Positions 1 through 20,296 of a stretch of 64,000 bases of DNA are shown piece after piece (within the stretch, counting starts at the first letter, position 1; each line of letters starts with the position of its first letter). A program made the translations under genes and the position numbers. The stretch spans positions 1-64,000 of the forward strand of contig VFKA01000051.1 of the NCBI GenBank assembly GCA_009885795.1, in the 5' to 3' direction. Under the pieces are notes generated by a model. The model was not told the DNA's origin, made no database searches, and worked only from the letters and a program-made list of their open reading frames with translations. Source of the DNA: Rhodospirillales bacterium. Its GTDB lineage: Bacteria > Pseudomonadota > Alphaproteobacteria > Dongiales > Dongiaceae.

Positions 1-281
1 CTGACCGGCTGCCGCCTCAACGAAATCATGACGCTACAGTGGGAGCACGTGGACGCACTCGGCAAGGCGCTCCGCCTTCCGGACTCGAAGACGGGCGCCA
101 CACCTTCGCCTCGACCGCCGTCGCCGCCGGCCAGGGCCTGCCCATGATCGGCAAGCTCCTCGGCCACACGCAGGTTCAGACTACGGCGCGCCATGCGCAC
201 CTGGCCGCCGATCCGGTCAGGTTGGCCGCCAACCATGTCTCGGCAGAGATCGCGAGCTTGTCGAATGGTAAGGCAGCGTAA
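1..281 (+). pseudogene. Tyrosine recombinase (phage-type integrase) remnant
   Basis: Two frames join into the C-terminal half of a tyrosine recombinase. Bases 1-105 read TGCRLNEIMTLQWEHVD, which is box I with its catalytic Arg. From about 90 another frame reads GRHTFAS followed by LLGHTQVQTTARHAHL. The 50-60 residues that normally separate SKTGA from the HxxRHTFAS box are missing, so an internal deletion has shifted the frame. The HxxR histidine is gone, and the position of the nucleophilic Tyr (normally RYAHL) is His. The gene also runs off the window edge. It is a dead fragment and probably marks an old integration event next to the catabolic island. Bases 282-521 after it hold nothing I can recognise. 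Confidence 0.75.
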
Positions 282-521
282 CTGGAGAAGGAGGAACTGG
301 GTTCCAACCTTCTCCGCGCGTGGCGTTGCTGGCAACGGCGCGCCGGTTCGCTCATCCGCCGCGGTATCCTGCACCGTAGAGTGTTCAGCTGGTGGCAGAG
401 GAGCAGGTTCTCGGCTTGGAGCCGACGCCGAGCCTTCACCATGAACATTGGACAATCCACATGACCGTTCGATTTCTTCCGGTAATCGGTGAAATCATAT
501 TACGATTGGGTGCTTGGTAGG

Positions 522-1544
522 TTACTTCGTCACGGAAGGCGTTTTCGGCGGCGACAGCGGTTCGCTTGCCTGGATTCGCTCGATCTCCGATATCAGGGCC
601 GGGAGGAAGGTCGCGCAATCGCCGACAACGCCCAGATCGGCGACCCTAAAAATTGGCGCTTCCGGATCCGTGTTGACGGCCGCGATCACCTTTGAAGATG
701 ACATGCCCACCACGTGCTGCACCGCTCCGGAAATTCCGAATGCCAGGTAGAGATCCGGGCGCACGGTCCGTCCGGTCTGACCAACTTGTTGGGCGGCGGA
801 GACCCAGCCGGCGTCGGTGGCGGCGCGAGAGGCACCGACCGCGCCATGCAGCAGCCGTGCCAACGCCTCGAGCCGCGCGAAATGTTCGGGGCCTTTCATG
901 CCACGGCCCCCGCTCACGACGACGCGCGCTGTCTCCAGATTGACTCGATTCCGGGAGTCGTCACTGGCTCGTTCCACGAGTCGGACCTTGCGCGGATCGT
1001 GGTCGAAGCGCGGCTCAAATGTTTGAACCTCGCCTGTTCGAGTACCGTCGGGAACGCCTGGTTGAAAGCTTGTTCGGCGCACGCTCACCACGATGGGAAA
1101 GTTCCGCGGAACCAGGGTGACGGTGGCGCGTCCGCCATGGATCGGTTTGATGACGTTGATTTCCTCTTGAATGATGCCGACGCCGGTCGAGTTGTTGACG
1201 AATGATCCGCCTCGGCGAAAGGCAAGTCGGGCCGCCAGATCATGGCCGTGGCTGTCGGCTTCCATGAGGACCAACCGCGGCAGGTGCCGTTCGCAGATCT
1301 GCTCCAGTACCGGGAGCATGCAATCGCTTTCATATTCGGCCAGCCAGGGGTGCTCGACGTTGATGACGACATCCGCGCCATGAGCGATCAGCTGTGCCCC
1401 GCGCTCATGGGGCCGCAGGCGCGGTATGACCGCAATGACGCTGCCGTGAGCCGCGTCCGCGAGGCGTCGCGCGCCGCCGACCAATTCCATGGCGCCCGTT
1501 GGGTCAGTCGCATCATCCGATGACACCACCACTATGCCGGTCAC
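522..1544 (-). CDS. etfA: Electron transfer flavoprotein alpha subunit
   Basis: This is the FAD-binding subunit of an electron transfer flavoprotein, which takes electrons from a flavin dehydrogenase and passes them to ETF-quinone oxidoreductase. At 340 aa it is close to the family length. The C-terminal FAD domain is clear: [36 protein letters not shown] and [17 protein letters not shown], roughly residues 215-325. It is the last gene of a leftward operon (MBL hydrolase, DAO, M24, etfB, etfA), and its ATG overlaps the etfB stop by 4 bp. Because it lies with a DAO-type oxidoreductase, I infer that this is a dedicated ETF for that enzyme, as in sarcosine and dimethylglycine dehydrogenase systems, and not the housekeeping beta-oxidation ETF. 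Confidence 0.93.
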
Positions 1545-2362
1545 GACGGCCTCGTTTCCGATCCGAGGATATGGCGGTCACGCAACCGGCGAACAAGATC
1601 GCGAGCCTGTTCCTGGACAGTCTCGCCGACAATCCACGCGCAGGCACGCTCTCGCGTCGTGACAACAACGGTGCATTCCTTGACTTTCATTGGAGGCACG
1701 GCGAAACGCTCGACATCGATACCGATGTCGAGCGCCGTCCACACCGGAATCGGCTGCTTGGCGGACGCCAGGAGGTCGCGCAACTTGGGAAGTCTGGGCC
1801 CGTTCGCATGATCGCTAATGACGGTTACGACAAGGGGCGGCGAAGCGTGGAGCAGCTCATATCCGTGGCTCAAGGTCCGGTGAATTTCAAGTCCGTTCCG
1901 CGCGGCGCTAATTCGTGACGCATAGGTAATACAGCCGATCGCGAGTTCCTCGGCGATGAGGGGCCCGACCGCGGCGCCCGCCATGTCACCCGACTCGCAT
2001 CCCGTAAGAATGAGATCGATCGGCCCAAGTTTCCGAATAGCCCGCGATAGAACGTAAGCGGTCTTGAACGGATCGGCATCATGAAACGACGGGTCGTTGA
2101 GAAGCACGCCGGCGCCGAACCCCAGGCCGAGAGCCTGACGCAGCACCTGCGTCGCCTCGGGCGGTCCGATGGTCAAGGCCGTCAACTGTCCGCCGAGCCC
2201 GTCCCTAAGTCGCAGGGCGACCTCGCATGCGTTCAGGTCAAAAGGACTGGCGACCAAGGAGAGACGGTTCCGGTCCTGGCGCGAAGTAACGGGATCGATC
2301 GCGAAGGTCCGGTCGGGCGCCTCCGGATCGACGATCTGCTTTATGCAGACGACGATATTCAT
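1541..2362 (-). CDS. etfB: Electron transfer flavoprotein beta subunit
   Basis: This is the AMP-binding partner of EtfA, 273 aa. It starts MNIVVCIKQIVDPE and has the conserved middle section DLILTGCESGDMAGAAVGP and an ETF-beta C-terminus. It is translationally coupled to etfA by an ATGA overlap and lies 18 bp after the M24 gene. No clear ribosome binding site precedes the ATG, but no other in-frame start is near. Cellular location is cytoplasmic. The protein diverges from typical housekeeping EtfB in the recognition-loop region, where I cannot find the usual leucine-anchor motif with certainty. That would fit a specialised partner, but this is inference. Confidence 0.92.
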   Translation of the reverse strand: MNIVVCIKQIVDPEAPDRTFAIDPVTSRQDRNRLSLVASPFDLNACEVALRLRDGLGGQLTALTIGPPEATQVLRQALGLGFGAGVLLNDPSFHDADPFKTAYVLSRAIRKLGPIDLILTGCESGDMAGAAVGPLIAEELAIGCITYASRISAARNGLEIHRTLSHGYELLHASPPLVVTVISDHANGPRLPKLRDLLASAKQPIPVWTALDIGIDVERFAVPPMKVKECTVVVTTRERACAWIVGETVQEQARDLVRRLRDRHILGSETRPS

Positions 2363-2380
2363 CGACGCATGACGATCTGC

Positions 2381-3577
2381 TCACACCCAAAGCACGCCGC
2401 GCGGCACTTTCGAATCCACCTCGCAGCCGTCGCTTGTCACGATGATCGTGTTGCAGTGCCGGTAAATGACATCGTTCTCGCGTACGTGCGGCTCGATCGA
2501 AAACGCCATTCCCGCTTCAAGGACGACATCATTGTAGAGACGAATATCAAGCTTCAGTTCGCGGGCGTTCGCCTCGTAGCTGGTAATACCGCGGCCCACG
2601 CCCGTTCCCGTCGGAGTCACCAACCCATGCTCGTCGAAAAGCGCCTTCATCCGCTTGTCGATATCGCACACGCGCACGCCCGGGCGAACCATCGCGATCG
2701 CCTTTTCGTTCATCTCGACCATGAGCTCGAAGAGTTCACGTTGCCTGCCGCGGGGCTCACCGACGGCAATGGCGCGCTCGACGTTGCCCGAGTATCCCCA
2801 AAGCCAAGCCGAGAAAACGGTGGCGAGAACCTGTCCTGGTTGCACTTTATCGGTAGGGCCCCAAGTCGCCCATTCGCTATGGATGATGCGTTTCTTGTCA
2901 TCATGCAAGCCGACATCGGCGTGAACCACGAACGGCATGTCCGGGTGATCCTGAAAGCAGGCCTCGGCCATCGCGGTGCGGACCTGGCTGTTGAGGCGGT
3001 CGGCGCTGCGTCCCGGACGAATGAGGTCGAGCGCCATTTGCTGCCCAAGGTCGCAAATCGCATCGGCGGCCCGGATCAACGCGATCTCCTCGGAGGACTT
3101 GACCAAGCGCACCTTGTCGAGAAGGTCCGAGGCGGCGACCAGGTCCACCGCCGGGGCGGCTTGCGCCATGGCCCGATACAACCCGACGGGTAACGTGGCC
3201 TCCTCGAATCCTATTCGCTTTCCATCGAGGCCAAGGTCCGAAATCGCTCCGGCGAGATGGTGTACCATCGATGCCGGCGGGGGGCGCGGATCGTCCGTGG
3301 CGGGCGTGGGGTTGTAGTCCCAATACACGCGGATATCCTTGACCCATGACTGCAATTCCGTATGCCGGCGCTCGATAAAGGACTCGATGACGACGGGTTC
3401 GCCGTCCAACGGCAGCAACGCGGCGATGGGCCTGCCATAGGGATGCACCGGCGCGCCGCTGACATAGTAAAAAGCCGGATAGGAAGTCGCGATGACGGCA
3501 TCGATCTCTTGCGCTCGCAGTTGGTCGCGAATGAGTTCGTGCCGTCGATCCATTTCGCTACGACTGAAAATTGTCAC
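2381..3577 (-). CDS. M24-fold hydrolase without metal ligands (creatinase/DoeA-like)
   Basis: A 398-aa 'pita-bread' protein of peptidase family M24: creatinase N-domain at residues 1-150, catalytic domain at 155-398. The metal site of M24 peptidases (D, D, H, E, E) is mostly lost. The region LATVFSAWLWGYSGNVER has no first Asp and has Asn (about 265) for the second. GVGRGIT has Arg (about 329) where His is expected, and the last Glu is Asn (about 376). Only the Glu in SIEPH (about 362) remains. The motif NVER resembles LER of true creatinase, and His233 in RIIHSEW sits where creatinase has its catalytic His. I infer a metal-independent C-N hydrolase, as known for creatinase and ectoine hydrolase. 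The start is GTG with GGGGAG six bases upstream. Substrate unknown. Confidence 0.8.
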   Translation of the reverse strand: MTIFSRSEMDRRHELIRDQLRAQEIDAVIATSYPAFYYVSGAPVHPYGRPIAALLPLDGEPVVIESFIERRHTELQSWVKDIRVYWDYNPTPATDDPRPPPASMVHHLAGAISDLGLDGKRIGFEEATLPVGLYRAMAQAAPAVDLVAASDLLDKVRLVKSSEEIALIRAADAICDLGQQMALDLIRPGRSADRLNSQVRTAMAEACFQDHPDMPFVVHADVGLHDDKKRIIHSEWATWGPTDKVQPGQVLATVFSAWLWGYSGNVERAIAVGEPRGRQRELFELMVEMNEKAIAMVRPGVRVCDIDKRMKALFDEHGLVTPTGTGVGRGITSYEANARELKLDIRLYNDVVLEAGMAFSIEPHVRENDVIYRHCNTIIVTSDGCEVDSKVPRGVLWV

Positions 3578-3618
3578 TTTGATCTCCCCGCTTTGTGCCG
3601 CTGGACATGCATTTTCAC

Positions 3619-4797
3619 TCAGAACGCGAAGCCCTTGTAGATTCCACGCAGTGGTGGGCGCCCGTCGGCAAATCGACGCGATGAGAAAGGCTCGATGTCG
3701 ATCTCATCGGTGGCGCCGTCGAGTACCAGATCCGACATGATTTTGCCCACGACCGGCGCATGCTTGAATCCGTGGCCGCTGAAACCCGCGGCGGTATAGA
3801 AACCGGGGCGGTCGGGCACGGCTTCGAGAATGAAATGGCCGTCGGGGCTCATGTCGTACATCGAGGCATAGCCGCCCGTGGCCTCGCCATTCTCCATGGC
3901 GGGAATTCGCTTGGAAAGCATGCTTCCGGCCTTGACAACATGGTCGGTGTCGACGCGTTCGACGTTCCGGTCCGGGTCGACCGGCGGATGCGCACCAGGT
4001 TGGCTCCGCGTCCCGACCAAGAGAAGATCTTGCCCTTCTGGACGGATATAGCAGCGGTTGATGTTATCGCCGACGATCAGTCGGGGCTGGGCGAAGCCGG
4101 TGGGAACCCTAAACGACGCAACTTGGACCCGGACCGGCACAACCGGCAAGGTTGTCCGAGCCATGCCCGCAATGCCACGCGCCCAGACGCCAGCCGCGTT
4201 CACGACTCTTGGGGCGGAAACCGTGCCCTGGTTGGTCACGACGCCGGCAATGCCGTCTCCCTTCATGAGAACGTCGATGACTTGTGATCCCTGACGGATG
4301 TCGGCGCCAAGCTCCCTGGCTTTTCGGGCGTAACCATTGACCACCGATGCCGGATCGCCGTAGCCGGTCGTCGGATCATAGCCGGCGCCCGCAACGCCAT
4401 CGGTGCCCAACATGGGTGCCAGGTTCCGAAGATCATCGAGATCGAGGGCATCGGCATCGGCGCCGATACGACGCAGCATCGCGACGGTCGCCACCATTGC
4501 GTCGAAGTCCTCCGGGCCGACAAGGGTCAGCATGGGACAACATGAAATGTCGGCTGAAACGCCCGTCAGCTCCTTGAACTCGCGAAAGATCTCGAGAGAC
4601 CGCGTCGCCATGCGCGCGTAGAGCTCGAGGGAGTAATGGCGTCGAAGCAAGGCGCTGGAACGTCCGGTCGGGCCCGAGCCAAGCCCATTTTTTTCGCAGA
4701 GTACGATTCGTCCGGCTTTCCTCAGCGCCAAATGATAGGCGATGCTGACGCCGGTAACGCCGCCACCAATGACAACAACATCAGCGGTCCAATTCAT
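3619..4797 (-). CDS. FAD-dependent oxidoreductase, DAO family
   Basis: A 392-aa flavoprotein of the D-amino-acid oxidase / sarcosine oxidase-beta / dimethylglycine dehydrogenase family. The N-terminal Rossmann motif is VVVIGGGVTGVSIAYHLA, followed by the family's TGRSSALLRRHYS loop. The second FAD contact GHGFKHAPVVGK is near residue 350. These enzymes oxidise the C-N bond of secondary or tertiary amines, such as N-methyl or N-alkyl amino acids. It lies in an operon with etfBA, which suggests electrons go to ETF and not to oxygen, so dehydrogenase is likelier than oxidase. It lacks the C-terminal folate-binding domain of long sarcosine and dimethylglycine dehydrogenases. Exact substrate unknown. 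Confidence 0.88.
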   Translation of the reverse strand: MNWTADVVVIGGGVTGVSIAYHLALRKAGRIVLCEKNGLGSGPTGRSSALLRRHYSLELYARMATRSLEIFREFKELTGVSADISCCPMLTLVGPEDFDAMVATVAMLRRIGADADALDLDDLRNLAPMLGTDGVAGAGYDPTTGYGDPASVVNGYARKARELGADIRQGSQVIDVLMKGDGIAGVVTNQGTVSAPRVVNAAGVWARGIAGMARTTLPVVPVRVQVASFRVPTGFAQPRLIVGDNINRCYIRPEGQDLLLVGTRSQPGAHPPVDPDRNVERVDTDHVVKAGSMLSKRIPAMENGEATGGYASMYDMSPDGHFILEAVPDRPGFYTAAGFSGHGFKHAPVVGKIMSDLVLDGATDEIDIEPFSSRRFADGRPPLRGIYKGFAF

Positions 4798-4809
4798 CTC
4801 CGGAGGTGC

Positions 4810-5505
4810 CTAGTAGAACCGAAGTTTAAGGTCCAGGGCTTCGATTTGGCCGTCCAAGACCACGCGGCCGTCCATGACCCGTACCGCGCGGTCATGGCCC
4901 GGTATGATGGTTTGGCATTCGCCGAACAATCTCGCGACCGAACGTTCGGCGCTGGTCGTCGATGCCAGGCCGCGCGCCGCCTTCGATCCGATAAGTTCGG
5001 TGATGCTCTTCGCGGCATCGCCGGCGAGACCCACGACCCCTTCATCGGTACGCGCAAGCAAGGACATGTGGCCATCGGTGTGGCCGGGCGTCTCGATCAA
5101 TTTTACGTCGGGCTCTAGTTCCACGTCGCCGCTGGTACGCACCAGGTCAAGCCGGCTGAACAGGGCATCGACAAAATCGTAGACGTAGTGATCGCGGCCG
5201 GCCTCGCGCTCGGCATAGGCGAACTCCTCCGCCGAAACGACAACCCTACTCTTGCGAAAGAGCACGGCGTTGGCGCAATGATCGGTATGGAGATGGCTGA
5301 GCACCAGAATGTCTATGCCGTCCGGCGTCAGATCATGTTGCGCCAAGGCGGCAAGCAGCTCCTCGCGATCGTTGGCAAAACCACAATCGAAGACGATCTT
5401 GCGGCCACTATCGGCGATGACAAGGATCTGGGAGCAGAAGGCGAGTGAACCCCGGCTGGTACTGAGCGGGATACCGTGCTGAAGGGTGAATACTCTAGCC
5501 AACAC
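4810..5505 (-). CDS. MBL-fold metallohydrolase (lactonase-like)
   Basis: A metallo-beta-lactamase fold hydrolase of about 231 aa. The zinc motif HLHTDHC is near residue 70, followed by TPGHTDGH, the bridging Asp in LAGDAAK and the terminal IPGHDR, which together give the full dinuclear site. The layout resembles N-acyl-homoserine-lactone lactonases and related small-molecule hydrolases. I chose the GTG at 5505, where GGAG lies four bases upstream. The open frame runs on to 5604, but that part overlaps the promoter and operator region. It is the first gene of the leftward catabolic operon, 12 bp before the DAO gene. In a catabolic setting it may open a lactone or lactam, or hydrolyse a thioester. 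That is inference. Confidence 0.8.
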   Translation of the reverse strand: MLARVFTLQHGIPLSTSRGSLAFCSQILVIADSGRKIVFDCGFANDREELLAALAQHDLTPDGIDILVLSHLHTDHCANAVLFRKSRVVVSAEEFAYAEREAGRDHYVYDFVDALFSRLDLVRTSGDVELEPDVKLIETPGHTDGHMSLLARTDEGVVGLAGDAAKSITELIGSKAARGLASTTSAERSVARLFGECQTIIPGHDRAVRVMDGRVVLDGQIEALDLKLRFY

Positions 5506-5608
5506 GGTACTCCACAATCCACCGGTCAAGCGAGCGCGGCTCGATCGCCAAGCCATAAAGAGTTGTTCGAGCAATGCCCGCGAAATCTTGACAGCGCGTC
5601 GCAAATTG

Positions 5609-5623
5609 TATTGTCGGACAATA
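5609..5623. promoter_or_regulatory. GntR/FadR-type operator O1
   Basis: A perfect palindrome, TATTGTCGGACAATA. Its core TTGTCGGACAA fits the TNGTnnnACNA pattern known for FCD-type GntR regulators. It covers the -10 hexamer of the leftward promoter. Related sites lie at 5716-5728 and 10045-10057, and a gene for such a regulator lies at 9094-9933. Confidence 0.7.
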
Positions 5624-5647
5624 GGATTAGGTCTTGCCGGCTGTCAA
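5618..5647 (-). promoter_or_regulatory. Leftward promoter of the MBL-DAO-M24-etfBA operon
   Basis: On the minus strand, TTGACA (5647-5642) is followed after 18 bp by TATTGT (5623-5618). The -10 element is inside operator O1, so binding of the regulator should block RNA polymerase. The distance to the chosen start at 5505 is about 110 bp. Confidence 0.55.
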
Positions 5648-5691
5648 GTTGAACGCGCGGCGACGCAAGGGAGCGCCGGCGCGAGGTCCGC

Positions 5692-5728
5692 TTGACAGCG
5701 CCCCATGGCTGCCCCATTGTAGGACAAA
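5692..5728 (+). promoter_or_regulatory. Rightward promoter of the ABC operon with operator O2
   Basis: TTGACA at 5692-5697 is followed after 17 bp by CATTGT (5715-5720). The palindrome ATTGTAGGACAAA (5716-5728) overlaps the -10 and matches the core of operator O1 except at the central base. A second TTGACA at 5588-5593 faces the same way ahead of O1, but its spacer is only 15 bp. The 5' leader down to the gene start is about 190 nt. Confidence 0.6.
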
Positions 5729-5915
5729 TGCACCATCCAGGTCCGGCGGGGCGGTGGCGGTTTGGTTTGGAGCGAACCAGGGGACGCGGCGGTCATGCAT
5801 AAACTCGGCACGAAAGCCGATGAGGTTCGCTATGTCGCGCCGGGCCGTTCCTCGCGGCAATTTTCCAGGAGAGCAAATACGCATGTCTAACCATCTAACA
5901 GGGGAGGAAACACGC

Positions 5916-7229
5916 ATGGTCAACCGGCATACAGGATCCATGTCCCGTCGCACGGTATTGAAGTACATGGCGGTCACTGGCGGCGCGGCCGCGCTGCAAT
6001 CTTGGACTTCTTCCTCGGCCTCCGCGGCCGTCGAGCTTACGTCCGTGTCGGCAATGGTCGCGGACGCCGAAGTGGCCTGGGAAAAGGAAATGGTCGAAAA
6101 GTGGAACAAGGCCAATCCGGACATGCAATGGGTGCCGGAGAACGTGGGCTGGGAGGGAATCTTCGAGAAGGTCCTCGCTTACGAGACGGCCGGTTCGCCA
6201 CCCAACCTTGGTTACGGATGGACTGGGTTTACCGCGGATTGGCACCAGATGGGGATCATCGCTGCCCCGGAGGACCATCTCGGCCAGGAGTGGAAGAGTC
6301 GCTTCGCACCCTATATCGCCGAGGACGGCGGCGACGTGATCGATGGCAAGCTGTGGGCGGTACCGTTACAGGCCGGCTCGTATGGTTTGGTGACTCGGGT
6401 CGACTGGTTGAAGGCGGCAGGCATCGACCGCGCTGGTATCCAAACCTATGACCAGCTCGTCGATGCGCTTGCCAAAGTCGCAAAGTCGCAAAACAACAAG
6501 CCGCTTGGCATCCCGCTGGGCAACTCGCGCAATGCCGCCGAAAAAACGGATTGGATGTTCAGAGGCAACGGCCTGTTGCATTTGGCCGATTTCGATCCCG
6601 GCAAACGCGATGCCTATATCGAAGTTCTGGAGACGCTGAAAAGATTGCGTCCTTACATTCCCGACGACTCGCTCAGTCAGGACTATACGGGCCATAGGCG
6701 CGCCTTCGCTACCGGCGCGGCGGGGTTCATCTCGATAGGCGATTACTACTTCGGGGAGATTTATCCTTCCGCCAAAGACCTCATGACGCCCGAACACGTG
6801 ACCATGATTCCCTATCCCAGCGGCAGCAAGGGGCCCGGACCTTTCAGCATGTTCGACCTCAATTCCTACTACATGATGGCGCATGCCAAGAATTTGGACG
6901 CGACGACCAAACTCGTGGACTTCTTGACCAGCCGGGAAAACTTGCTGCGCTGGTCTCTTGGCCATCCCCCCCTGAAGGAATGGACTGTCGACGAAGCCGT
7001 GAAGTCCCGGCTCTACGGCGAGGCCGAACGTTGGTGGCTCGATGACGTCATCGTCCTGGCATCGAAGGTACCGGGACTTGCCGCGTTGGGATACGTCGCC
7101 AAGGACGAGGTGCAGCAAGTGTACTACGAAAATCTGCTTAAAGTGTTCGACGGCAGTCAGACGCCGGAGCAGGCCTACGACGCGATGAACGGCCGTATTC
7201 CGGAACTGATCAAGGCCGGCGGCGGATAA
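5916..7229 (+). CDS. Tat-exported ABC substrate-binding protein (CUT1 type)
   Basis: A periplasmic solute-binding protein of the extracellular family 1 type, 437 aa from the ATG at 5916, which has the strong site GGGGAGGAAA five bases upstream. An in-frame ATG at 5883 with AGGAG is the alternative. The signal peptide carries a twin-arginine motif (SRRTVLKYMAV, Arg 11-12) and ends near SSASA, so export is through Tat and the protein probably folds in the cytoplasm first. It is the first gene of the importer operon, followed by two MalFG-type permeases. CUT1 systems usually carry oligosaccharides or polyols, but the neighbouring enzymes are those of amino-acid-like substrates, so the ligand is open. 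Confidence 0.88.
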   Translation: MVNRHTGSMSRRTVLKYMAVTGGAAALQSWTSSSASAAVELTSVSAMVADAEVAWEKEMVEKWNKANPDMQWVPENVGWEGIFEKVLAYETAGSPPNLGYGWTGFTADWHQMGIIAAPEDHLGQEWKSRFAPYIAEDGGDVIDGKLWAVPLQAGSYGLVTRVDWLKAAGIDRAGIQTYDQLVDALAKVAKSQNNKPLGIPLGNSRNAAEKTDWMFRGNGLLHLADFDPGKRDAYIEVLETLKRLRPYIPDDSLSQDYTGHRRAFATGAAGFISIGDYYFGEIYPSAKDLMTPEHVTMIPYPSGSKGPGPFSMFDLNSYYMMAHAKNLDATTKLVDFLTSRENLLRWSLGHPPLKEWTVDEAVKSRLYGEAERWWLDDVIVLASKVPGLAALGYVAKDEVQQVYYENLLKVFDGSQTPEQAYDAMNGRIPELIKAGGG

Positions 7230-7239
7230 GGGCTGTTCT

Positions 7240-7271
7240 GGGGAGCACGGAGACTTCCGGCCGTGCTCCCC
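7240..7271 (+). terminator. Stem-loop after the binding-protein gene
   Basis: GGGGAGCACGG (7240-7250) pairs perfectly with CCGTGCTCCCC (7261-7271) around a 10-nt loop. No T-tract follows, so it is not a standard terminator. Hairpins at this spot in binding-protein operons often protect the upstream mRNA or partly stop transcription, giving more binding protein than permease. Confidence 0.5.
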
Positions 7272-7346
7272 CGGTTCTCGTGGCGTTCGTCGTCGATTGA
7301 ACGCTAGGATGGCGCCGATCCGTGCGGATGGCGTTGGTGTGTCTCG

Positions 7347-8228
7347 ATGAAATTGCGCAGAGAAACCGTCCAGGGCTATCTCTATTTCCTGCCCGTGTTT
7401 CTTATCCTCGGCGCCGTGGTCGGTTGGCCGCTGATTCAGGCCGGGTGGATGAGTTTTTCCGACCTCTATCTGCTCAAGGCCTTACGGGCGCGGAACTTTG
7501 TCGGCCTCGATAACTACATCCATTTTTTCGAGGATCCGAATGCCTCGAAGTTTCTCATCAACACCGCGATATTTGTCGTGGGCGGCACCGCCGCGCAGCT
7601 CACGATAGGGCTGATTCTGGCGCTTCTGCTTAACCAGCGGTTGGTTCTCCGGGGTTTCTGGCGCGGCCTCGCGATCATGCCCTGGGCGATGCCGATCACG
7701 GTAACGGCCCTGACCTGGAAGTGGATACTGGACGGCCAATGGGGAATCTTGAATTACGTCCTGGTTGAACTAGGGATCACCGACGGCTACATCAGTTGGC
7801 TCTCGAGCCCGATCTGGCTGTGGCCCTCCATTCTGATGGTTGACGCCTGGGCCGGCTGCCCCTTCATGTTCGTCAACCTGCTCTCCGGTCTTCAGGGAAT
7901 TCCACGCGACCTGTACGAGGCCGCGCGGATCGATGGCGCGGGCCCCTGGAAGGCCTTCTGGCGCATCACCCTTCCGATGCTCCGACCCATCATCGCGACA
8001 TTGGTACTCCTGAGCGTCATTATACATCTGCGCGACTTCACGACGATATGGATCTTGACCTCGGGTGGGCCCGGCATCGAAAGCACGACGCTGTCGCCAC
8101 TGGTCTACGTGACGAGCTTCCGGTATTTCAAAATGGGATATGGGGCGGCCATCGGCATGTTGCTCATGCTGATCAGCCTTGTTTTCACGATTTTCTATTT
8201 GAGACGCGTACGGTTCGAAGCGGCTTGA
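7347..8228 (+). CDS. ABC transporter permease, MalF/UgpA type
   Basis: An inner-membrane permease of 293 aa with six predicted hydrophobic segments. The first is YLYFLPVFLILGAVVGWPL near the N-terminus. The EAA loop that contacts the ATPase reads EAARIDGAGPWKAFWRITLP, about residues 190-210, in the typical position before the last two helices. It pairs with the permease at 8259 and with the ATPase at 14701, which is encoded in another operon. No good ribosome binding site is seen ahead of the ATG, so it may rely on coupling to the upstream mRNA. Confidence 0.9.
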   Translation: MKLRRETVQGYLYFLPVFLILGAVVGWPLIQAGWMSFSDLYLLKALRARNFVGLDNYIHFFEDPNASKFLINTAIFVVGGTAAQLTIGLILALLLNQRLVLRGFWRGLAIMPWAMPITVTALTWKWILDGQWGILNYVLVELGITDGYISWLSSPIWLWPSILMVDAWAGCPFMFVNLLSGLQGIPRDLYEAARIDGAGPWKAFWRITLPMLRPIIATLVLLSVIIHLRDFTTIWILTSGGPGIESTTLSPLVYVTSFRYFKMGYGAAIGMLLMLISLVFTIFYLRRVRFEAA

Positions 8229-8258
8229 TCGAGGCACGGCGCTTGACCTGGTGAACGG

Positions 8259-9119
8259 ATGACGCAACGCCAATTTCACTCTCGCATGCGAAGGCTTCCG
8301 GGGCAGGTCGTGCGATTGGCGAGCCTCTCGGTTCTGCTGCTCTGGGTCGTTTTTCCGTTCTTGTGGGCGATCACATGCTCGCTGCGCCCAATCGACAAAC
8401 TGTTCACGTTGACCCCGGAATGGCTGCCGAGCCCACTCACCTTCGATAACTACCTGTGGGCCATCCATGAGCCGAACTTCGTGATACCGCTGCGAAACTC
8501 GTTTCTGGTGTCGGGACTGACGGCGGTCATTTCGGTCACGCTGGGGGCGCTCGCGGCATACGGATTGGCAAGGCTCCGCTATCCGGGGAAGAAGACCATC
8601 ATCACGATCATGCTGAGCACGCAGATGCTGCCGACCATGCTCGTCATCATCCCGATTTTCCTGATCTATGCTCGTGTCGGGCTCTTCAACACGCTTTCGG
8701 GTCTCATCCTCGCCTCGACGGCGTGGACATTGCCTTACGCCGTGCTGCTTCTACGCAGCTTCTTCTCCGGGCTCTCGGTGTCGCTTGAGGAACAAGCGAT
8801 GGTCGACGGATGCGGCCGCCTTGGCGCGTTCATGCGAATCACCCTGCCGCTGTCGATTGCGGGAATCATCGCGGTCACGGTGTATGTTTTCATCTGGACG
8901 TGGGGTGACATGCTGTTTCCCTTCATCCTGGCCAAGAACATCGATAACCAGACCGCGGCGCTAAGCCTCTTCAACATGATGCAAAGCACGAGGGGGGCGA
9001 CGAATTACGCGGGCCTGCTCGCCGCCGGCGTTCTCTTCACCTTGCCGGCGATGATTCTATTCGTCGCGTTGCAGCGACAGCTGCTTGAGGGCCTTACCGC
9101 GGGCTCATTGAAGGAATAG
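8259..9119 (+). CDS. ABC transporter permease, MalG/UgpE type
   Basis: The second membrane subunit of the importer, 286 aa, six hydrophobic segments. The EAA loop reads EEQAMVDGCGRLGAFMRITL near residues 185-205. The C-terminus ends GLTAGSLKE, which is characteristic of MalG-type subunits (GLTAGAVKG in many). It follows the first permease by 30 bp. Its last 26 bases overlap the 3' end of the convergent regulator gene, so the two transcripts are complementary at their ends. Confidence 0.9.
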   Translation: MTQRQFHSRMRRLPGQVVRLASLSVLLLWVVFPFLWAITCSLRPIDKLFTLTPEWLPSPLTFDNYLWAIHEPNFVIPLRNSFLVSGLTAVISVTLGALAAYGLARLRYPGKKTIITIMLSTQMLPTMLVIIPIFLIYARVGLFNTLSGLILASTAWTLPYAVLLLRSFFSGLSVSLEEQAMVDGCGRLGAFMRITLPLSIAGIIAVTVYVFIWTWGDMLFPFILAKNIDNQTAALSLFNMMQSTRGATNYAGLLAAGVLFTLPAMILFVALQRQLLEGLTAGSLKE

Positions 9120-9933
9120 CCTCGTGCCGCCTTTGGGAGATCCGCGCCTTGGGCAACGATCGCGCCCGTATCCTGGTCGGGACGACTGTTTTCTTGCCCC
9201 GGCTGTTGGAGCGATGGCGCTTCCCCGATGGAGCCATCTTCAAGCCGATCTCGGGTTCCTTCAGCCGAAGGATGGTTTCCTTTAGATGCGTTTGCATCAA
9301 CTGCCGTGCCCGATGCGGCCGCCGGCGCCTGATCGCGGTTAGGATCGCCTGGTGATCGGCGATGTCGTTCCTCGGAACACTCTCGAGCTGGTTGATCTGC
9401 TCCCGCGCCGACCTGTAGCTACCGACGATCGCGCCGATACAGGTCACCAGCGCGCCGTTTCGGGACGCCTTGGCGATACTGATGTGAAATCGGGAGTTGG
9501 CTTTGAAGTGAGACTCCCCCGCCGTCACGACCTTCACCAGGGATTCGTGGCAACGCTGAATCTGGCTGACGTCCTCGGGAACCGCGTTGACCGCCGCGAG
9601 CGCGGCGGCCTCGCCCTCGAGCAGCATGCGAATCTCATAGAGGTCCCGTATCTCCCAATAGGCGACGGCCGCGGCCAACGTGTCGGCAAGCCGGCTGTCG
9701 AGGCCCGACACCACGATCGTGCCTCGCTTCGGCCGCGATTCTAGGATGCCGCTGAATGACAGCCCCTTCAAGGCCTCCCGCACGCTCGATCTTCCGACAC
9801 CGAATCGCTTCATCAGCTCGTATTCGGAGGGGAGGCGGTCGCCGGGCCTGAGCCGCCCTCCCCTTATCAGGGCCGCGATCTCGGCAACGAGCCGTTCGCT
9901 GATGGTCACTTTGTTCTTGGCTGGCCGTCCCAT
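9094..9933 (-). CDS. GntR-family (FadR/FCD subfamily) transcriptional regulator
   Basis: A 279-aa regulator. The N-terminal winged helix has the GntR signature LRPGDRLPSEYELMKRFGV and GRSSVREALKGL (residues 30-65). The C-terminal domain is all-helical, of FCD type, with RFHISIAKASRNG and later His residues (DHQAI, HLKETI) that in this family often hold a metal or carboxylate ligand. The ATG is preceded by GAGGGAG. It lies between the importer operon and the deacylase operon, and a matching operator (10045-10057) lies in the gap upstream. I infer that it represses all three transcription units and itself, and is released by the substrate or an intermediate. The C-terminal 50 residues are basic and of low complexity. 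Confidence 0.9.
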   Translation of the reverse strand: MGRPAKNKVTISERLVAEIAALIRGGRLRPGDRLPSEYELMKRFGVGRSSVREALKGLSFSGILESRPKRGTIVVSGLDSRLADTLAAAVAYWEIRDLYEIRMLLEGEAAALAAVNAVPEDVSQIQRCHESLVKVVTAGESHFKANSRFHISIAKASRNGALVTCIGAIVGSYRSAREQINQLESVPRNDIADHQAILTAIRRRRPHRARQLMQTHLKETILRLKEPEIGLKMAPSGKRHRSNSRGKKTVVPTRIRARSLPKARISQRRHEAIPSMSPR

Positions 9934-10027
9934 CTGGTCTCCCTCATCGGCGCCTCGAGTAACCCTAGCACAACGGTCCTACCACGGGGCGAGGTCCCGG
10001 CGCATCTTTTTTGTGGCCGGTAAAGAG

Positions 10028-10057
10028 TTGACAGCCTCCAGTATATTATCTGACAAT
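10028..10057 (+). promoter_or_regulatory. Promoter and operator O3 between the regulator and the deacylase operon
   Basis: TTGACA at 10028-10033 is followed after 18 bp by GACAAT (10052-10057). The palindrome ATTATCTGACAAT (10045-10057) differs from O1 (ATTGTCGGACAAT) at two positions and covers the likely -10. It can serve the rightward deacylase operon and may also act on the divergent regulator gene starting at 9933. The rest of 9934-10155 shows nothing else. Confidence 0.55.
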
Positions 10058-10155
10058 AGCACCAAGCACGCGCCTTGGGGGCGCCGGGATTGCGGGAAGG
10101 TCGCGCCCGCTTGAAGGGTTTTAGCGGGCGTCTGGCGAGGTCCGAGAACGATGCC

Positions 10156-11139
10156 ATGCATCTCGAACTAGTCGACAAGATCGATCTTTCCGCGATCAAG
10201 GATGAAACGAAGCGGGCGTTCTCTCTTTCCATCGCTGCCCTCGCGGATGGTTCGTCCGTCCGCCTGCCCGTCAACGTGGTGGCCGGGAGAGGGGATCGGC
10301 CCCGCTTGGCCGTCGTCGCGGGGATCCATGGGGATGAGGGCGAAGGCATCGCGGCCCTAATGGAGCTGTGGAAGGACATTTCGCCGATTGACTTGCGAGG
10401 GCGCCTGGTCATCGTTCCGGTCGCCAATCCGACGGCCTTCGCGGCGGACTCGCGCTGCTCTCCGCTCGATGGTCTCGATCTCAACAGGATCTTTCCCGGC
10501 AGGGCGGACGGGGCGGCGTCCGAGAAGGTCGCCTTTCGGTTGTTCGAGGAAGTCCTTTCGAAGGTCGATTTCGTCTTCTCGATGCACAGTTGGAGCAAGA
10601 ACGGCGAGGTGATCCCCTATGTGGAGTTCGACCACCAGAACTCGCGAACCGCGAAGGCCAGCTTCGACGCGGCGGTCGCGGCCGGATTCGAAATTGTACG
10701 CTTGAGCTGGTGGTCGCCGGGCCTGATGACCCGCGTGGTAAACGAGTCGGGAATTCCGGGTCTCGAAGCGGAGATCGGCGGCCTTGGTATCACCACACGC
10801 GAAAACCGGGGTCGTTACCGGCGCCACGCCAACGCCATCATGGGACATCTGGGCATGTCGGCGGCAACGACTTCCGCCCGAACGGGGCCTCGAATCGTGA
10901 AGCACGTCGATGTTTTCGCGCCGTCCGGAGGGCTGTTGACCATTCGAGCCGAGATTGGCGATGACGTCACCGAAGGCGATGTTATCGCTCGAGTCGAGGA
11001 TTCCTGTGGAAGTGTCATCGCCGACATTCACGCCGCCAGCACCGGCTTTGTCGGCGCCGCTCGAAAATGCGCGTCCGTTCAGCCCGGCGATCTGATCTTT
11101 CGGCTGTTTTCCGATGCGACCTGGGAGGGCGGTCGTTGA
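10156..11139 (+). CDS. Zinc deacylase of the AstE/AspA (DoeB-like) family
   Basis: A 327-aa carboxypeptidase-like deacylase of the succinylglutamate desuccinylase / aspartoacylase family. The zinc ligands are His and Glu in GIHGDEGEG and a later His in SMHSW. DLNRIFPG is the family's substrate loop, and the Glu in LEAEIGG is the likely catalytic base. The last 80 residues form the small beta domain. The family removes acyl groups from amino acids. Its members include DoeB, which deacetylates N-acetyl-diaminobutyrate in ectoine breakdown. I use the ATG at 10156; an in-frame upstream extension to 10075 would run through the promoter region. First gene of a five-gene operon. Confidence 0.88.
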   Translation: MHLELVDKIDLSAIKDETKRAFSLSIAALADGSSVRLPVNVVAGRGDRPRLAVVAGIHGDEGEGIAALMELWKDISPIDLRGRLVIVPVANPTAFAADSRCSPLDGLDLNRIFPGRADGAASEKVAFRLFEEVLSKVDFVFSMHSWSKNGEVIPYVEFDHQNSRTAKASFDAAVAAGFEIVRLSWWSPGLMTRVVNESGIPGLEAEIGGLGITTRENRGRYRRHANAIMGHLGMSAATTSARTGPRIVKHVDVFAPSGGLLTIRAEIGDDVTEGDVIARVEDSCGSVIADIHAASTGFVGAARKCASVQPGDLIFRLFSDATWEGGR

Positions 11140-11230
11140 AACAGGTTGGGGGCCATCCTCTGCGTGACGACTGGCGCCGTTTCAACACCGGCGTGGCTCG
11201 GCTCCGGTCCCCCATCCGCAGGAGCGTTGG

Positions 11231-12529
11231 GTGATGGAGGATCGTGGGGCCGCGGCAATTCGCCCGGTGGCGCCGGAGTGGTCGTTGGCATGCGCCGTCT
11301 GCCACGCCGAATTTCCGTTCGAGCCGAAGGTTTTTGGTTGTCCGGCTTGCCGGAAAAATGGCAAGCGGAGTGTTCTGGAAACGCGCTTCAGGCCGGCCGC
11401 CATTCCACCCTCGCCACGCGACAGAGGTGGTCGAACCGGGCTGCGGCGATATCTTGATCTGCTCCCCGGTAGCGACAATGCGGCTTGGATTTCACTCGGA
11501 GAAGGCGGCACGGCGATGATACCGTCCCGCCACGTGGGGCCCCGGCTTGGGCTCCGCAACCTTTACTTCAAGAACGAGACGACGAACCCGACCTGGTCGT
11601 TCAAGGACCGCTATTCGGCCGTCACCATCAATACCGCCCGTGCTTTCGGATTTCGCCGGGTCGTTGTTTCATCGACAGGCAATCTGGGCACCTCGGTCGC
11701 TGCCTATGCGGCAGCCTCGGGCATGGACTGCCTTTTCATCGCGTCGGAGGAGGCGCCGGACAGCCAACTTCAACAGGCGCTCGTGTATGGCGCCCACGTG
11801 GCCATTGTGCCGCAAGAGCGAAGGCTGGAGCTCTTCGAGGCCATCGCCAGAAGGCCGGGATGGTTCCCGGTCGGGCTGTTCATGGAGCGAGACGTGCAAA
11901 ATCCGTTTGGCGTCGAAGGCTACAAGACCTTTGCCTACGAGATGCTGGAGGCATTGATCGAGCCGCCACAAATGGTTCTCTTTCCATGCGCGCGGGGCAA
12001 CGGACTCTATGGTGCCTGGAAAGGTTTTCGGGAAGCCGTCGCCTGGAATTGGGCGGATGCGGCTCCAAGGATGGTGGCGTGCCAGCCCTCCGCCGCGAAC
12101 TCGCTCGAGGTTTCCTTGCGCGCGGGCGCGGATCAAGCCGTGCCTGTTTCCGCGCGAAGCGCGAGCATCGCGGTATCGACGTTCGAGCAGGTATCCAGCA
12201 CGCATGCCCTCCAAGCGATTCGAGAATCCGATGGCGCCGCTCTCTCGGCCGACGATGGCGACATCGTCAAGGCCATGGACCTGCTTGGGCGGGAGGGACT
12301 TTGTGTCGAAGCATCGTCGGCGCTAACCGTGGCTTGCTTGCCCCTGCTTGTTGCCGGCCTGAATAAGAAGGATACCCGTCCGATCGTGTGCGTTCTGACC
12401 GGGTCCGGCATAAAATGGGCGCCGGATCTGAAACGTCACAAACGAGCCATCAAGCGTTTCCCGTCCGGCAGCCAGTCCGACTTCCTGAGCTGGGCCGAGA
12501 CCGAGAGCTCCAGCGGGATTGATCGTTGA
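11231..12529 (+). CDS. Threonine-synthase-like PLP enzyme (fold type II)
   Basis: A 432-aa PLP-dependent enzyme. The N-terminus has a zinc-ribbon-like set of cysteines (CAVC and CPAC, residues 21-40), as in several threonine-synthase-like proteins. The PLP lysine is K125 in TWSFKDR, and the phosphate and substrate loop is SSTGNLGTS near 148. The glycine-rich C-terminal loop is LTGSGIKW. Possible reactions are beta or gamma replacement or elimination on a hydroxy- or amino-substituted amino acid. No homoserine-kinase neighbour is present, so a true threonine synthase is unlikely. The start is GTG at 11231 or ATG at 11234, with AGGAG at 11220. The next gene overlaps its stop. Confidence 0.85.
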   Translation: MMEDRGAAAIRPVAPEWSLACAVCHAEFPFEPKVFGCPACRKNGKRSVLETRFRPAAIPPSPRDRGGRTGLRRYLDLLPGSDNAAWISLGEGGTAMIPSRHVGPRLGLRNLYFKNETTNPTWSFKDRYSAVTINTARAFGFRRVVVSSTGNLGTSVAAYAAASGMDCLFIASEEAPDSQLQQALVYGAHVAIVPQERRLELFEAIARRPGWFPVGLFMERDVQNPFGVEGYKTFAYEMLEALIEPPQMVLFPCARGNGLYGAWKGFREAVAWNWADAAPRMVACQPSAANSLEVSLRAGADQAVPVSARSASIAVSTFEQVSSTHALQAIRESDGAALSADDGDIVKAMDLLGREGLCVEASSALTVACLPLLVAGLNKKDTRPIVCVLTGSGIKWAPDLKRHKRAIKRFPSGSQSDFLSWAETESSSGIDR

Positions 12530-13740
12530 TGGTCTCGCGCGATGGATCGCACCGTGACGAAGCTCTCGCGGAGTTCGCGCGGGACGAGTACGGCGCTCGC
12601 ATCGACCGCATCCGGCGGCTCATGGCGGAAAACGATCTTGGCGCTATCCTGGTGACGTCGGAAGTGAACTTTCGATACATCACGGGCTACCAGAGCCAGA
12701 CATGGATTTCTCCGACCCGGCCGCGCTACTGCGTTCTGCCGTTGAAGGGCGACCCTATCGTGGTGTCGCCCGTGACCTTTCTCGTGGGCATGCGCCAAAC
12801 GTCGTGGATAAGCGACATCCGGTCATGGCCGGCGCCGCGTCCCGAGGACGATGGCGTGTCGTTGGTACGAGATGCCGTTTGGGAATGCGTGGGCCGCGGC
12901 GGGCGGCTCGGCGCCGAACTTGGCCCGGAAACTCGCCTGGGAATGCCGGTGGCCGATTTCTTGCGCCTGCGGGACGCCATTGCGCCCGTCGAGGTCGTCG
13001 ATGCCGGGACCATCATGACGCGGGTGCGAATGGTGAAATCCGAGGCCGAGGTCGGCCGTATTCGACGGGTGGCGCGAATTGTCTCGAAAAGCTTCGATGC
13101 CGTCCCGGGTTTTTTGAGCAAGGGGCGCTCGGAGAAAGACGTCTGCCGGGACTTGCAGATAGAAATCTTGCGCAACGGTGCCGATCGGTCGCCCTACTTG
13201 GTCGGGGTCTCGGATCGCGGCGGATACCCGAACATCAATGTGGGGCCAAGCGACCGCTTGCTGGATGACGGCGACATGCTCGTCATCGATACCGGAAGCA
13301 CCCTTGACGGCTATTTCTGCGACTTCGACCGCGAGTTCTTCTTGGGACGGCCATCGGACCAAATCCGGCAATTGCATGAAAAGTTGTGGAAAGTGACGGA
13401 AACGGGAATCGCCAGCATTCGGCCGGGTCGGCGCGTCTGCGATGTGTGGGCGGCGATGGCGGCGGCGCTCGACGAGATGTCGCTTGGCGCGGCGGATGTC
13501 GGCCGCATGGGGCACGGCATCGGGATGGTGGTGACGGAACCCCCGTCGGTGCATCCGGCGGACACAACGATCATCCAAACCGGCATGGTGCTTACCGTCG
13601 AGCCAGGGCTATCGTTCATGAGCGAGACCGCGAACGGCGCGCGAAAAGTGATGGTCCATGAGGAGAACGTGGTTGTGACACCCGACGGGTGCGAGTTGCT
13701 GAGCGTTCGGGCCTCGCCGGACCTCACGACGGTTTTGTAG
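12529..13740 (+). CDS. M24 family metallopeptidase (Xaa-Pro type), intact metal site
   Basis: A 403-aa M24 protein with the creatinase N-domain at residues 20-165 and the catalytic domain after it. All five metal ligands are present: Asp in VIDTGST (about 254), Asp in YFCDFDR (about 265), His in MGHGIG (about 329), Glu in TVEPGL (about 358) and Glu in VHEENVVVT (about 379). It therefore looks like an active dinuclear aminopeptidase or dipeptidase, unlike its paralogue at 2381-3577. It may split an amide bond made or exposed by the other enzymes. The ATG overlaps the PLP-enzyme stop (TGATG). A TTG at 12526 is the alternative. Confidence 0.88.
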   Translation: MVSRDGSHRDEALAEFARDEYGARIDRIRRLMAENDLGAILVTSEVNFRYITGYQSQTWISPTRPRYCVLPLKGDPIVVSPVTFLVGMRQTSWISDIRSWPAPRPEDDGVSLVRDAVWECVGRGGRLGAELGPETRLGMPVADFLRLRDAIAPVEVVDAGTIMTRVRMVKSEAEVGRIRRVARIVSKSFDAVPGFLSKGRSEKDVCRDLQIEILRNGADRSPYLVGVSDRGGYPNINVGPSDRLLDDGDMLVIDTGSTLDGYFCDFDREFFLGRPSDQIRQLHEKLWKVTETGIASIRPGRRVCDVWAAMAAALDEMSLGAADVGRMGHGIGMVVTEPPSVHPADTTIIQTGMVLTVEPGLSFMSETANGARKVMVHEENVVVTPDGCELLSVRASPDLTTVL

Positions 13741-13756
13741 CATCCGGAGGCTGATC

Positions 13757-14623
13757 GTGGCGAAGCGGCGGGTATTGATGACGGGCGCCGGCGGATATGT
13801 CGCCGCTCAATTGCTGCCGGCCCTTGCCGAGCGGTATGAGCTCGTCCTGGTCGATGTCGTAGGCGCCGCCGACGGCGCGTACGGGACGATCCACCGGCTC
13901 GACCTCGCTCGCGACAAATTGGAAAACATCGCGCCCTACTTCGATTCGGTCGATGTCGTCGTCCACAACGCCTACTATTGCCGGAAAGATCTGGAAACAT
14001 CCTGCTCCGACCACTGGCGGGAGAAGCGGGAGCCGTTGGATCCTCTTGGTTACGAGATCGAGCGCGTCAACATCGACATGGCCTATCGGGTCTTGCGGAT
14101 CGCCTTGGAGAAAAAAGTTCAACGGGTCATCCTGACAAGCTCCAATCACGCCGCCGATTGGTATGAGACACGGCTGCATCGCGGCGCCATGGATGTCGTG
14201 GACCCCATGGTCCTGCCGCTGTCCGACAATTTTTACGGCTGGGCCAAGGCGAGTTACGAGCTGCTCGGGTTCATTTTCGCCAGCGGCCGAATGGGCCGGA
14301 AGCTCGAGACCGTGGCTGTTCGCATCGGCGCGCCCAGGGAGATCGATGGCCGCCAGCTCCGGTCCGACCTCGATCGATTTCGCCGCGATCTTGGCGCCTA
14401 TGTCAGTCCGCGAGATCTTCGGGCACTATACGTTCGCGCGATCGATGCCGCCAGCATCGACGACGATGACGGAATTCCGTTCCTTATCGTATACGCGATA
14501 TCCAACAATGCGCGGGCGTTCTGGAGCATCGCGAATGCGCGCCGCATTCTGGACTACAATCCGCAAGATGATTCGGAGGCCCGGTTCGCCGAGGACATCC
14601 GGCGCTATCTGACCAAAACATGA
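13757..14623 (+). CDS. NAD-dependent epimerase/dehydratase (extended SDR)
   Basis: A 288-aa short-chain dehydrogenase of the extended type. The nucleotide motif is TGAGGYVAAQLLP at the N-terminus, an Asp-containing loop follows (DVVGAADG), the middle strand is VILTSSNHAADWY and the catalytic pair is YGWAK (about residue 160). Length and motifs resemble uronate dehydrogenase-like and sugar-epimerase-like proteins. The insertion rich in Tyr and charged residues (HNAYYCRKDLETS) is unusual to me. The start is GTG at 13757 with GGAGG eight bases upstream. It lies in the operon between the M24 gene and the importer ATPase. The substrate cannot be read from the sequence. Confidence 0.82.
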   Translation: MAKRRVLMTGAGGYVAAQLLPALAERYELVLVDVVGAADGAYGTIHRLDLARDKLENIAPYFDSVDVVVHNAYYCRKDLETSCSDHWREKREPLDPLGYEIERVNIDMAYRVLRIALEKKVQRVILTSSNHAADWYETRLHRGAMDVVDPMVLPLSDNFYGWAKASYELLGFIFASGRMGRKLETVAVRIGAPREIDGRQLRSDLDRFRRDLGAYVSPRDLRALYVRAIDAASIDDDDGIPFLIVYAISNNARAFWSIANARRILDYNPQDDSEARFAEDIRRYLTKT

Positions 14624-14700
14624 CGCGGAAAGGCCGGGCCAGTCCGGCTCGCGCGAGGCACGCCGAACGACATCAGATGACGATTTGAAGGTCCGAAACA

Positions 14701-15792
14701 ATGGCCCAGGTAATTCTTAAGGATTTGAACAAGGAATTTGACGGGCTTCACGTCGTCAAGGATTTCAACATCGTCATTGAGGATAAGGAGTTTATCGTGC
14801 TTGTCGGGCCATCGGGGTGCGGCAAGACCACGACTCTCCGCATGATCGCCGGACTGGAAGACATTACGTCGGGCGAAATCACCATCGGCGGTCGCGTCGT
14901 CAACGACCTTGCGCCGAAGCATCGCGACATCGCCATGGTGTTCCAGAATTATGCGCTATACCCGCATATGAAGGTATTCGAGAACATCGCGTTCGGCCTG
15001 AGGATGCGGCGATTCGCCAGGCCGGAGATCAAGCGGCGCGTTCATAAGGCGGCGGAGATTCTCGGCATTATGGATCTGCTGGACCGAAAGCCGCGACAAT
15101 TGTCGGGCGGGCAGCGTCAGCGGGTCGCCTTGGGCCGAGCGCTCGTGCGCGATCCCAAAGTGTTCCTGTTCGACGAACCGCTCTCGAACCTTGACGCGAA
15201 ACTGCGCGTCCAAATGAGAGCCGAGATCAAGCGGTTGCATAGGCGCCTCGAGGCCACCGCCGTTTACGTGACCCATGACCAAGTCGAGGCCTTGACATTG
15301 GGAGACCGCATCGTCGTCATGCGCGACGGCGTCATCCAGCAGATCGGCGAGCCGATGTCGGTCTATTCCAAGCCGGCGAACAAGTTCGTCGCGGGTTTCA
15401 TAGGCTCTCCGGCGATGAATTTCGCCGACCTGACCATTACCGGGAGCGGGGATTCACTGTGGGCCATGGGCCCGGGCATGCGCATCGCGGTTCCCGCCGC
15501 GCGCATTCCCGGGCTTCGCCCGCGGATCGGGCGTGTCGTCACGCTAGGAATACGTCCCGAACACCTGCGTCTGGCGACCGAAGCGGCGACGGACGATAGC
15601 GGTTTCGATGCCGTTGTCGACATCGTCGAGCCCTTGGGCTCGGAGCTCTTGGTCGAGGTCAACGCGGGCAGCGTCGCATTTACGGCGCGTGTCGATCCCA
15701 AGGCGCGATTGCGACCCAGTCAACCGGTGCGCGTGCTCATGGATTCCGAGCAACTGCACTTTTTCGACTCGGACACGCAAGCCGCCTTGTAG
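14701..15792 (+). CDS. ABC transporter ATPase, MalK/UgpC type
   Basis: The ATP-binding subunit of a CUT1 importer, 363 aa. Walker A is GPSGCGKTT, signature LSGGQRQRVALGRAL, Walker B VFLFDEPLSNLD, and the switch His is in VTHDQVEAL. The C-terminal 120 residues form the MalK-type regulatory (TOBE/OB) domain. The window holds no other MalK-type ATPase, so I infer that it energises the permeases at 7347 and 8259 although it lies at the end of a different operon. The shared operator sequence would keep the two units in step. Bases 15793-15947 after it hold no gene. Confidence 0.9.
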   Translation: MAQVILKDLNKEFDGLHVVKDFNIVIEDKEFIVLVGPSGCGKTTTLRMIAGLEDITSGEITIGGRVVNDLAPKHRDIAMVFQNYALYPHMKVFENIAFGLRMRRFARPEIKRRVHKAAEILGIMDLLDRKPRQLSGGQRQRVALGRALVRDPKVFLFDEPLSNLDAKLRVQMRAEIKRLHRRLEATAVYVTHDQVEALTLGDRIVVMRDGVIQQIGEPMSVYSKPANKFVAGFIGSPAMNFADLTITGSGDSLWAMGPGMRIAVPAARIPGLRPRIGRVVTLGIRPEHLRLATEAATDDSGFDAVVDIVEPLGSELLVEVNAGSVAFTARVDPKARLRPSQPVRVLMDSEQLHFFDSDTQAAL

Positions 15793-16025
15793 CTTGACTT
15801 GTTATCGCCACGGAAAGCTCCATCCGGGCCAGGATCGCTTGGGAAGCACGTAATCACGTCGTTATCTGGCTGCATGCCTGGGATGGCCGGGTTGCGGTTC
15901 AATTGTCTGGCGGCGCCAGTGAATTTGCGGCGCCGGCCGCGATCCGAGAGGCTGTTTCGAAAGTGGTTGAGTGGTCGAAGCCATCGTGATTCCAAACGGT
16001 TATCGAAGCCGAATTTGAAGTTGCC

Positions 16026-17574: not shown

Positions 17575-18660
<1,086 letters not shown>

Positions 18661-19404
18661 TCCCTTTCGCGTGCTCATCCTCGGCGGCACGGCGGAGGCC
18701 GAGGAATTGGCGGCGCTGCTGGCGGCGCGGCCCGAGTTCGAGGCGACGACCTCGCTCGCCGGCTTGACACGCGCGCCGGCGCCGCTCCCCGGAAAGGTCC
18801 GGCGCGGCGGGTTCGGCGGCATCGACGGCCTCGTGCGCTATGTCGAGGCCGAGGGCATCGACGCCCTCATCGACGCGACGCATCCCTTCGCCGAGCAAAT
18901 GACGCGCCACGCCATCGAGGCCGCCGCCCGATCAGGGGCGCCGCTTCTGCGCCTCGAGCGGCCGGCATGGGACTCGGTTCCTGGCGATCGTTGGATCGAC
19001 GTGGAGGACGTGGCGGCGGCGGCGCGTGCCGTGCCCACACATGGCGCCCGCGCCTTCCTCACCGTCGGGCGCACCGAGCTTCGGAATTTCGCGGCCGACC
19101 GGAAAACCTGGTTCCTGGTGCGCCTCATCGAAGCGCCGGGCGAGGTGTTGCCGCTCGCGCGCCACGAGCTTGTCATCGGCCGCGGTCCCTTCACGGAACT
19201 GGGCGAGGCCGATCTCCTTCGGCGCCATCGCATCGATGCCGTTGTGTCGAAGAACAGCGGCGGCGATCTCACCTCCGCCAAGATCGCGGCGGCGCGCGAG
19301 CTCGGGCTGCCCGTGATCATGGTCCGGCGCCCAGCCTCGCCGCCCGGCCCGCACCCGTCGGTGCCGACGGCAAGCGACGCGCTCGCTTGGCTCGCCGCTC
19401 AAAC

Positions 19405-20166: not shown

Positions 20167-20202
20167 GGGTGGGACAATCGCGTTCGAGCGTTATGGGTTT
20201 CC

Positions 20203-20276: not shown

Positions 20277-20296
20277 AAACCCTGTTAGCCCCGCGG

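Follow-up and report, generated by a model that had tools for sequence, protein, structure and literature searches.

Three palindromic sites as probable operators of an FCD-type GntR regulator in a gene island of a Rhodospirillales bacterium

The left end of the window (the whole 64,000-nt stretch of DNA analysed here) carries an island in which the ATPase of an ABC importer is encoded far from its permeases (Table 1), and this raises the question of whether one regulator could keep the separate gene blocks in step. The first-pass annotation had proposed that it does: the product of 9094-9933 would act through three copies of a 13-mer, each at the head of an operon. We find this proposal right in its essentials. 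The three 13-mers are very probably operators of the island's FCD/FadR-type GntR, forming a one-repressor regulon predicted to work by occlusion; this is an ordinary, island-local FCD/GntR regulon with an operator of known type, and its new part is the assignment itself. The island is likely to have been gained horizontally, considering its low GC content (~59–63% over window 1-16000, versus 70–72% to the right at 18000-24000), a DUF4096 (IS4/5-type) transposase near its edge (16026-16403), and the PLP enzyme gene, for which no homologue (PALP, E ≤ 1e-45) was found in the order's 16 other genomes.

Table 1 Genes, promoters and proposed operators of the island (window coordinates).
Feature	Position	Strand	Remarks
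ETF alpha subunit	522..1544	-	
ETF beta subunit	1541..2362	-	
M24 creatinase/prolidase-like enzyme (a)	2381..3577	-	
DAO-family FAD oxidoreductase (N-methyl-amino-acid oxidase-like)	3619..4797	-	
Metallo-beta-lactamase-fold (MBL) hydrolase	4810..5604	-	first gene of leftward operon; true start probably near 5553
TTGACAGC copies	5588-5595, 5640-5647, 5692-5699, 10028-10035	+, -, +, +	
Possible additional rightward promoter, directed at operator 1	5588..5614	+	TTGACA-15-TATTGT, spacer below the usual length
Proposed operator 1	5610..5622	none	ATTGTCGGACAAT, perfect palindrome except centre; overlaps -10 of leftward promoter
Leftward promoter, MBL-DAO-M24-ETF operon	5618..5647	-	TTGACA 5647-5642, 18 bp, TATTGT 5623-5618; 10/12 matches
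Rightward promoter, importer operon	5692..5720	+	TTGACA 5692-5697, 17 bp, CATTGT 5715-5720
Proposed operator 2	5716..5728	none	ATTGTAGGACAAA; one mismatch to TTGTCNGACAA
ABC importer solute-binding protein (SBP)	5916..7229	+	SBP_bac_1, Tat-type signal
ABC importer permease 1	7347..8228	+	
ABC importer permease 2	8259..9119	+	
FCD-type GntR regulator	9094..9933	-	Pfam GntR 68.6 bits, FCD 90.4 bits
Rightward promoter, deacylase operon	10028..10057	+	TTGACA 10028-10033, 18 bp, GACAAT 10052-10057; 10/12 matches
Proposed operator 3	10045..10057	none	ATTATCTGACAAT; gap between gntR (leftward) and deacylase gene (rightward)
AstE/AspA-type deacylase	10150..11139	+	DoeB-like, under equivalog cut-off
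PLP enzyme, threonine-synthase-like	11231..12529	+	
M24 creatinase/prolidase-like enzyme (b)	12526..13740	+	
NAD-dependent epimerase/dehydratase	13757..14623	+	
MalK-type ABC ATPase	14701..15792	+	distant from permeases

All three 13-mers were found exactly where they had been reported, and every one of them heads a gene block, as had also been noted. Each lies within one mismatch of TTGTCNGACAA and follows the palindrome TKGT-N3-ACMA, close to the target genes and to the regulator's own gene; the second is the poorest palindrome among the three, and its centre lies 106 bp from that of the first. The sites had further been placed on or next to the -10 of promoters with a perfect -35. This stood for the -35, since TTGACA is perfect upstream of all three, and for the well-matched promoters of sites 1 and 3, but less so for site 2, whose weak -10 matches the consensus at just 3/6 positions, which explains why the promoter scanner was silent there. 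Of the three promoters, that of site 2 is the least firmly established; its spacer, like that of the possible promoter at 5588..5614, was counted by hand. Four copies of the 8-mer TTGACAGC are present in the 64-kb window, and every copy adjoins one of the proposed operators, as though promoter and operator together formed a single repeated unit. The copy at 5588, missing from the first-pass annotation, faces operator 1 from the opposite side, so site 1 may act both ways.

This geometry bears on the direction of control. Some GntR proteins activate, and the island regulator might do the same, or might act at one or two sites only, with site 2 (the copy that strays furthest from the palindrome and has the weak -10) as a decayed remnant. 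We regard this as unlikely, because each site lies over the -10 or directly against it, the position suited to occlusion, and downstream of a perfect -35, and because AlkR, with the same sequence over the -10, acts as a repressor (PMC12042122). AlkR, an FCD regulator like the island GntR, protects ATTGTCAGACAAT over two -10 regions, which is the same 13-mer with A at its centre, and is released by acyl-CoA; it differs in its VanR subclass, its alkane monooxygenase target genes and its fatty acyl-CoA ligand (PMC12042122). Similarly, the dimeric GntR regulator LhgR of Pseudomonas putida W619 protects TTGTCTGACAA in the promoter of its own gene and TAGTCTGACAA at its target, and is released by a small hydroxy-dicarboxylate; LhgR, however, controls the L-2-hydroxyglutarate oxidase gene lhgO and no import and breakdown island (PMC8206213).

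The FCD GntR type given for the product of 9094-9933 was borne out by both Pfam domains, an N-terminal GntR winged helix-turn-helix (HTH; PF00392, residues 12-74) and a C-terminal FCD domain (PF07729, residues 97-218), and the solved structures closest to it in sequence belong to the GntR family, e.g. 6az6 (E 8e-17) and 2di3 (E 6e-16). Its HTH carries Tyr38 at the equivalent of FadR Arg35, which corresponds to position 28 in the study of FadR-subfamily regulons by Suvorova et al. (PMC4494728), and its recognition helix consists of Arg48-Ser49-Ser50. That study describes a preference of Arg at position 28 for G/C at the corresponding operator base. The recognition residues fit the operator bases here, with non-Arg at position 28 (Tyr38) alongside T in TKGT, and Arg at position 38 (Arg48). 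The regulons of PMC4494728 parallel the island in their TKGT/ACMA palindromes, 3-nt core, position-28 rule and divergon sites; the available portion of that study does not name the orthologous group of the island regulator.

We then compared position 28 with the operator bases in 57 homologues, counting exact TTGTNNNACAA against exact TGGTNNNACCA. Arg was present in 7/7 cases with TGGTNNNACCA upstream, and a residue other than Arg in 5/5 with TTGTNNNACAA upstream; Arg thus pairs with TGGT and non-Arg with TTGT (p = 0.0013). The p-value is indicative only, because the criterion was picked with knowledge of an earlier result and of some of the data, and because a single genus accounts for two of the five cases without Arg. 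The test replaced an earlier one that demanded high symmetry and had too few cases (p = 0.43). The covariation agrees with the position-28 rule of PMC4494728.

The specificity residues also speak to whether another regulator of the genome with TTGTCNGACAA specificity reads the operators, leaving the island GntR to govern part of the island only. Several FCD regulators, such as AlkR and LhgR, share the motif, and seven FCD proteins were found in the host genome, including the island GntR. Nevertheless, we hold this to be quite improbable: none of the other six pairs a non-Arg position 28 with an RSS helix, their genes are located elsewhere in the genome, no TTGTCNGACAA site was seen upstream of them, and it is the relatives of the island GntR that have such a site beside their own genes.

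Conservation of the motif upstream of orthologous operons, which the first-pass annotation implied, was observed in a genome of a different family of the same class (G071), whose locus contains homologues of PALP (54%), M24 (49%), AspA (36%) and GntR (~40%). In this genome, ATTGTCTGACGAA occupies the gap between an M24 gene and a divergently oriented importer-SBP gene, and TTTGTCAGATCAT closely follows TTGACA in the promoter before PALP; the joint frequency of this pair in shuffles was 0.0006. Directly before gntR, the last gene of the importer operon in G071, no good site was found (best 3 mismatches). Two further genomes, G192 and G363, which belong to the same genus and are therefore not independent cases, encode GntR relatives (39–42% identity) with a VGRSS helix identical to that of the island GntR. 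In both, the region that separates gntR from a divergently oriented importer SBP gene holds two TTGTCNGACAA sites 27 bp apart, at 108/135 bp and 109/136 bp before gntR; the distance from operator 3 to gntR in the window is 123 bp. Since the enzymes of these clusters differ from those of the island, as does the dipeptide-type importer, and a single genus is involved, they reflect regulator homology and not pathway orthology. At L089 9640-9690 and L090 4269-4310, two operators spaced by 27 bp make up a double-site divergon, with gntR on one side and the gene for a dipeptide-type SBP on the other.

A close GntR orthologue was not found among the host's relatives; the scan of genome contigs yielded one 34% relative in an unrelated neighbourhood, and plasmid searches gave distant relatives only. 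Loci in two other genomes (G101 and G081) were set aside, as they have only one gene in common with the island (in G081 also generic ABC ATPases), and a well-placed operator could be recognised in neither. Several FCD homologues from genomes of the host's family (L017, L019, L022, L023, L029, L034) have an RTA recognition helix, with TTTATCATACAAA / TTTGTATGATAAA pairs upstream of gntR, mostly 33 bp apart; these pairs are a second, distinct operator class.

We evaluated the abundance of the motif at three scales. Within the 64-kb window, TTGTCNGACAA with at most one mismatch gave 4 matches against 0.66 expected, a count that 0/100 shuffles reached; these are the three named sites and one at 14219-14229, inside coding sequence. 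When the promoter gaps 5554-5915 and 9934-10149 (together ~580 bp) were shuffled, the mean was 0.01 sites versus 3 observed, and 0/20,000 shuffles gave 3; our own arithmetic from the genome-wide density likewise predicts ~0.012 sites per 580 bp. Genome-wide, the pattern occurs at 74 places versus 67 for the reversed control, which is background. The motif has no genome-wide signal, and its notable property is its crowding within the island promoters. The expectation that it should not be equally common at random places was therefore not borne out for the genome as a whole, but held for the promoter regions of the island. Without genome-wide enrichment, the regulon appears limited to the island, a genome-wide regulon is rejected, and sequence alone makes no single site decisive. 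That the palindromes have no role, having arisen by chance or as a by-product of promoter sequence, might be suggested by the equality of pattern count and reversed control, but is scarcely credible given the density in the two gaps and the conservation in three other genomes. The other perfect TTGTCNGACAA copy of the host genome lies inside rplO, and two one-mismatch copies lie inside coding sequences. Separately, ATTGTCCGCCAAT is located ~170 bp before a proline-racemase-family gene (host genome C6:20881-20893; L003 1501-1513), with TTGACA absent nearby; its AC core is broken, making it a weak candidate for an additional target.

The proposal of a single regulator over three operons is supported by the sites themselves, their promoter placement, the operators conserved in relatives, the match and covariation of residue and base, and the AlkR and LhgR footprints. 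In the mechanism we propose, a GntR dimer would dock on each TTGTCNGACAA palindrome over or beside the -10 and block RNA polymerase. Site 1 would thereby repress the leftward MBL-DAO-M24-ETF operon; site 2 would repress the rightward importer operon, perhaps with help from site 1; and site 3 would repress the deacylase-PLP-M24-SDR-ATPase operon. Site 3, whose location in the gap common with gntR the first-pass annotation had passed over, probably controls gntR as well: single sites in divergons usually regulate both flanking sides, according to PMC4494728, so autoregulation is likely. The inducer would be a small carboxylate, most probably the compound that is imported or one of the breakdown products; on binding the FCD domain it would release the repressor, and uptake and breakdown would be induced together. 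Direct binding, repression over activation, the inducer, and a transcript that reaches the ATPase gene are all steps that we infer. The assignment equips an uncharacterised island with a probable regulator and with exact positions for three operators, opens the inducer, and via the inducer the substrate, to simple reporter or binding tests, and provides a further clear case of the position-28 rule linking GntR sequence with operator sequence.

For the ATPase to be in step with the permeases, a single transcript from ~10060 to 15792 is needed. From deacylase to ATPase, successive genes are separated by 91, 0, 16 and 77 bp. The plus strand between them showed no promoter-like site, and terminator-like sites there were no commoner than in shuffles. 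These data are compatible with a single deacylase-PLP-M24-SDR-ATPase operon, short of proof, and co-regulation of the distant ATPase gene would depend on that presumed operon.

The deacylase, M24, DAO and ETF genes suggest an N-acylated or N-methylated amino-acid derivative as the substrate. The island resembles the DoeA/DoeB ectoine-breakdown clusters, in which an M24 hydrolase and an AstE/AspA-type deacylase adjoin an ABC importer, but has a different importer family and an additional DAO-ETF arm. Ectoine breakdown itself was not supported: the M24 enzyme (90.1 vs 575 bits) and the deacylase (131.4 vs 402.7 bits) both fell well short of the DoeA/DoeB equivalog cut-offs. Tentatively, the island may encode a pathway, undescribed so far and gained horizontally, for the uptake and breakdown of such a derivative. 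It would comprise the deacylase, two M24 hydrolases, the PLP enzyme and a DAO with its own ETF, would be tied together by a repeated unit of TTGACAGC plus operator, and would have a regulator that forms a new FCD orthologous group. Elsewhere in the window, 55444-56898 encodes a regulator of the MocR type, which combines GntR and aminotransferase domains, and adjoins a PhzF-like gene at 54374-55240.
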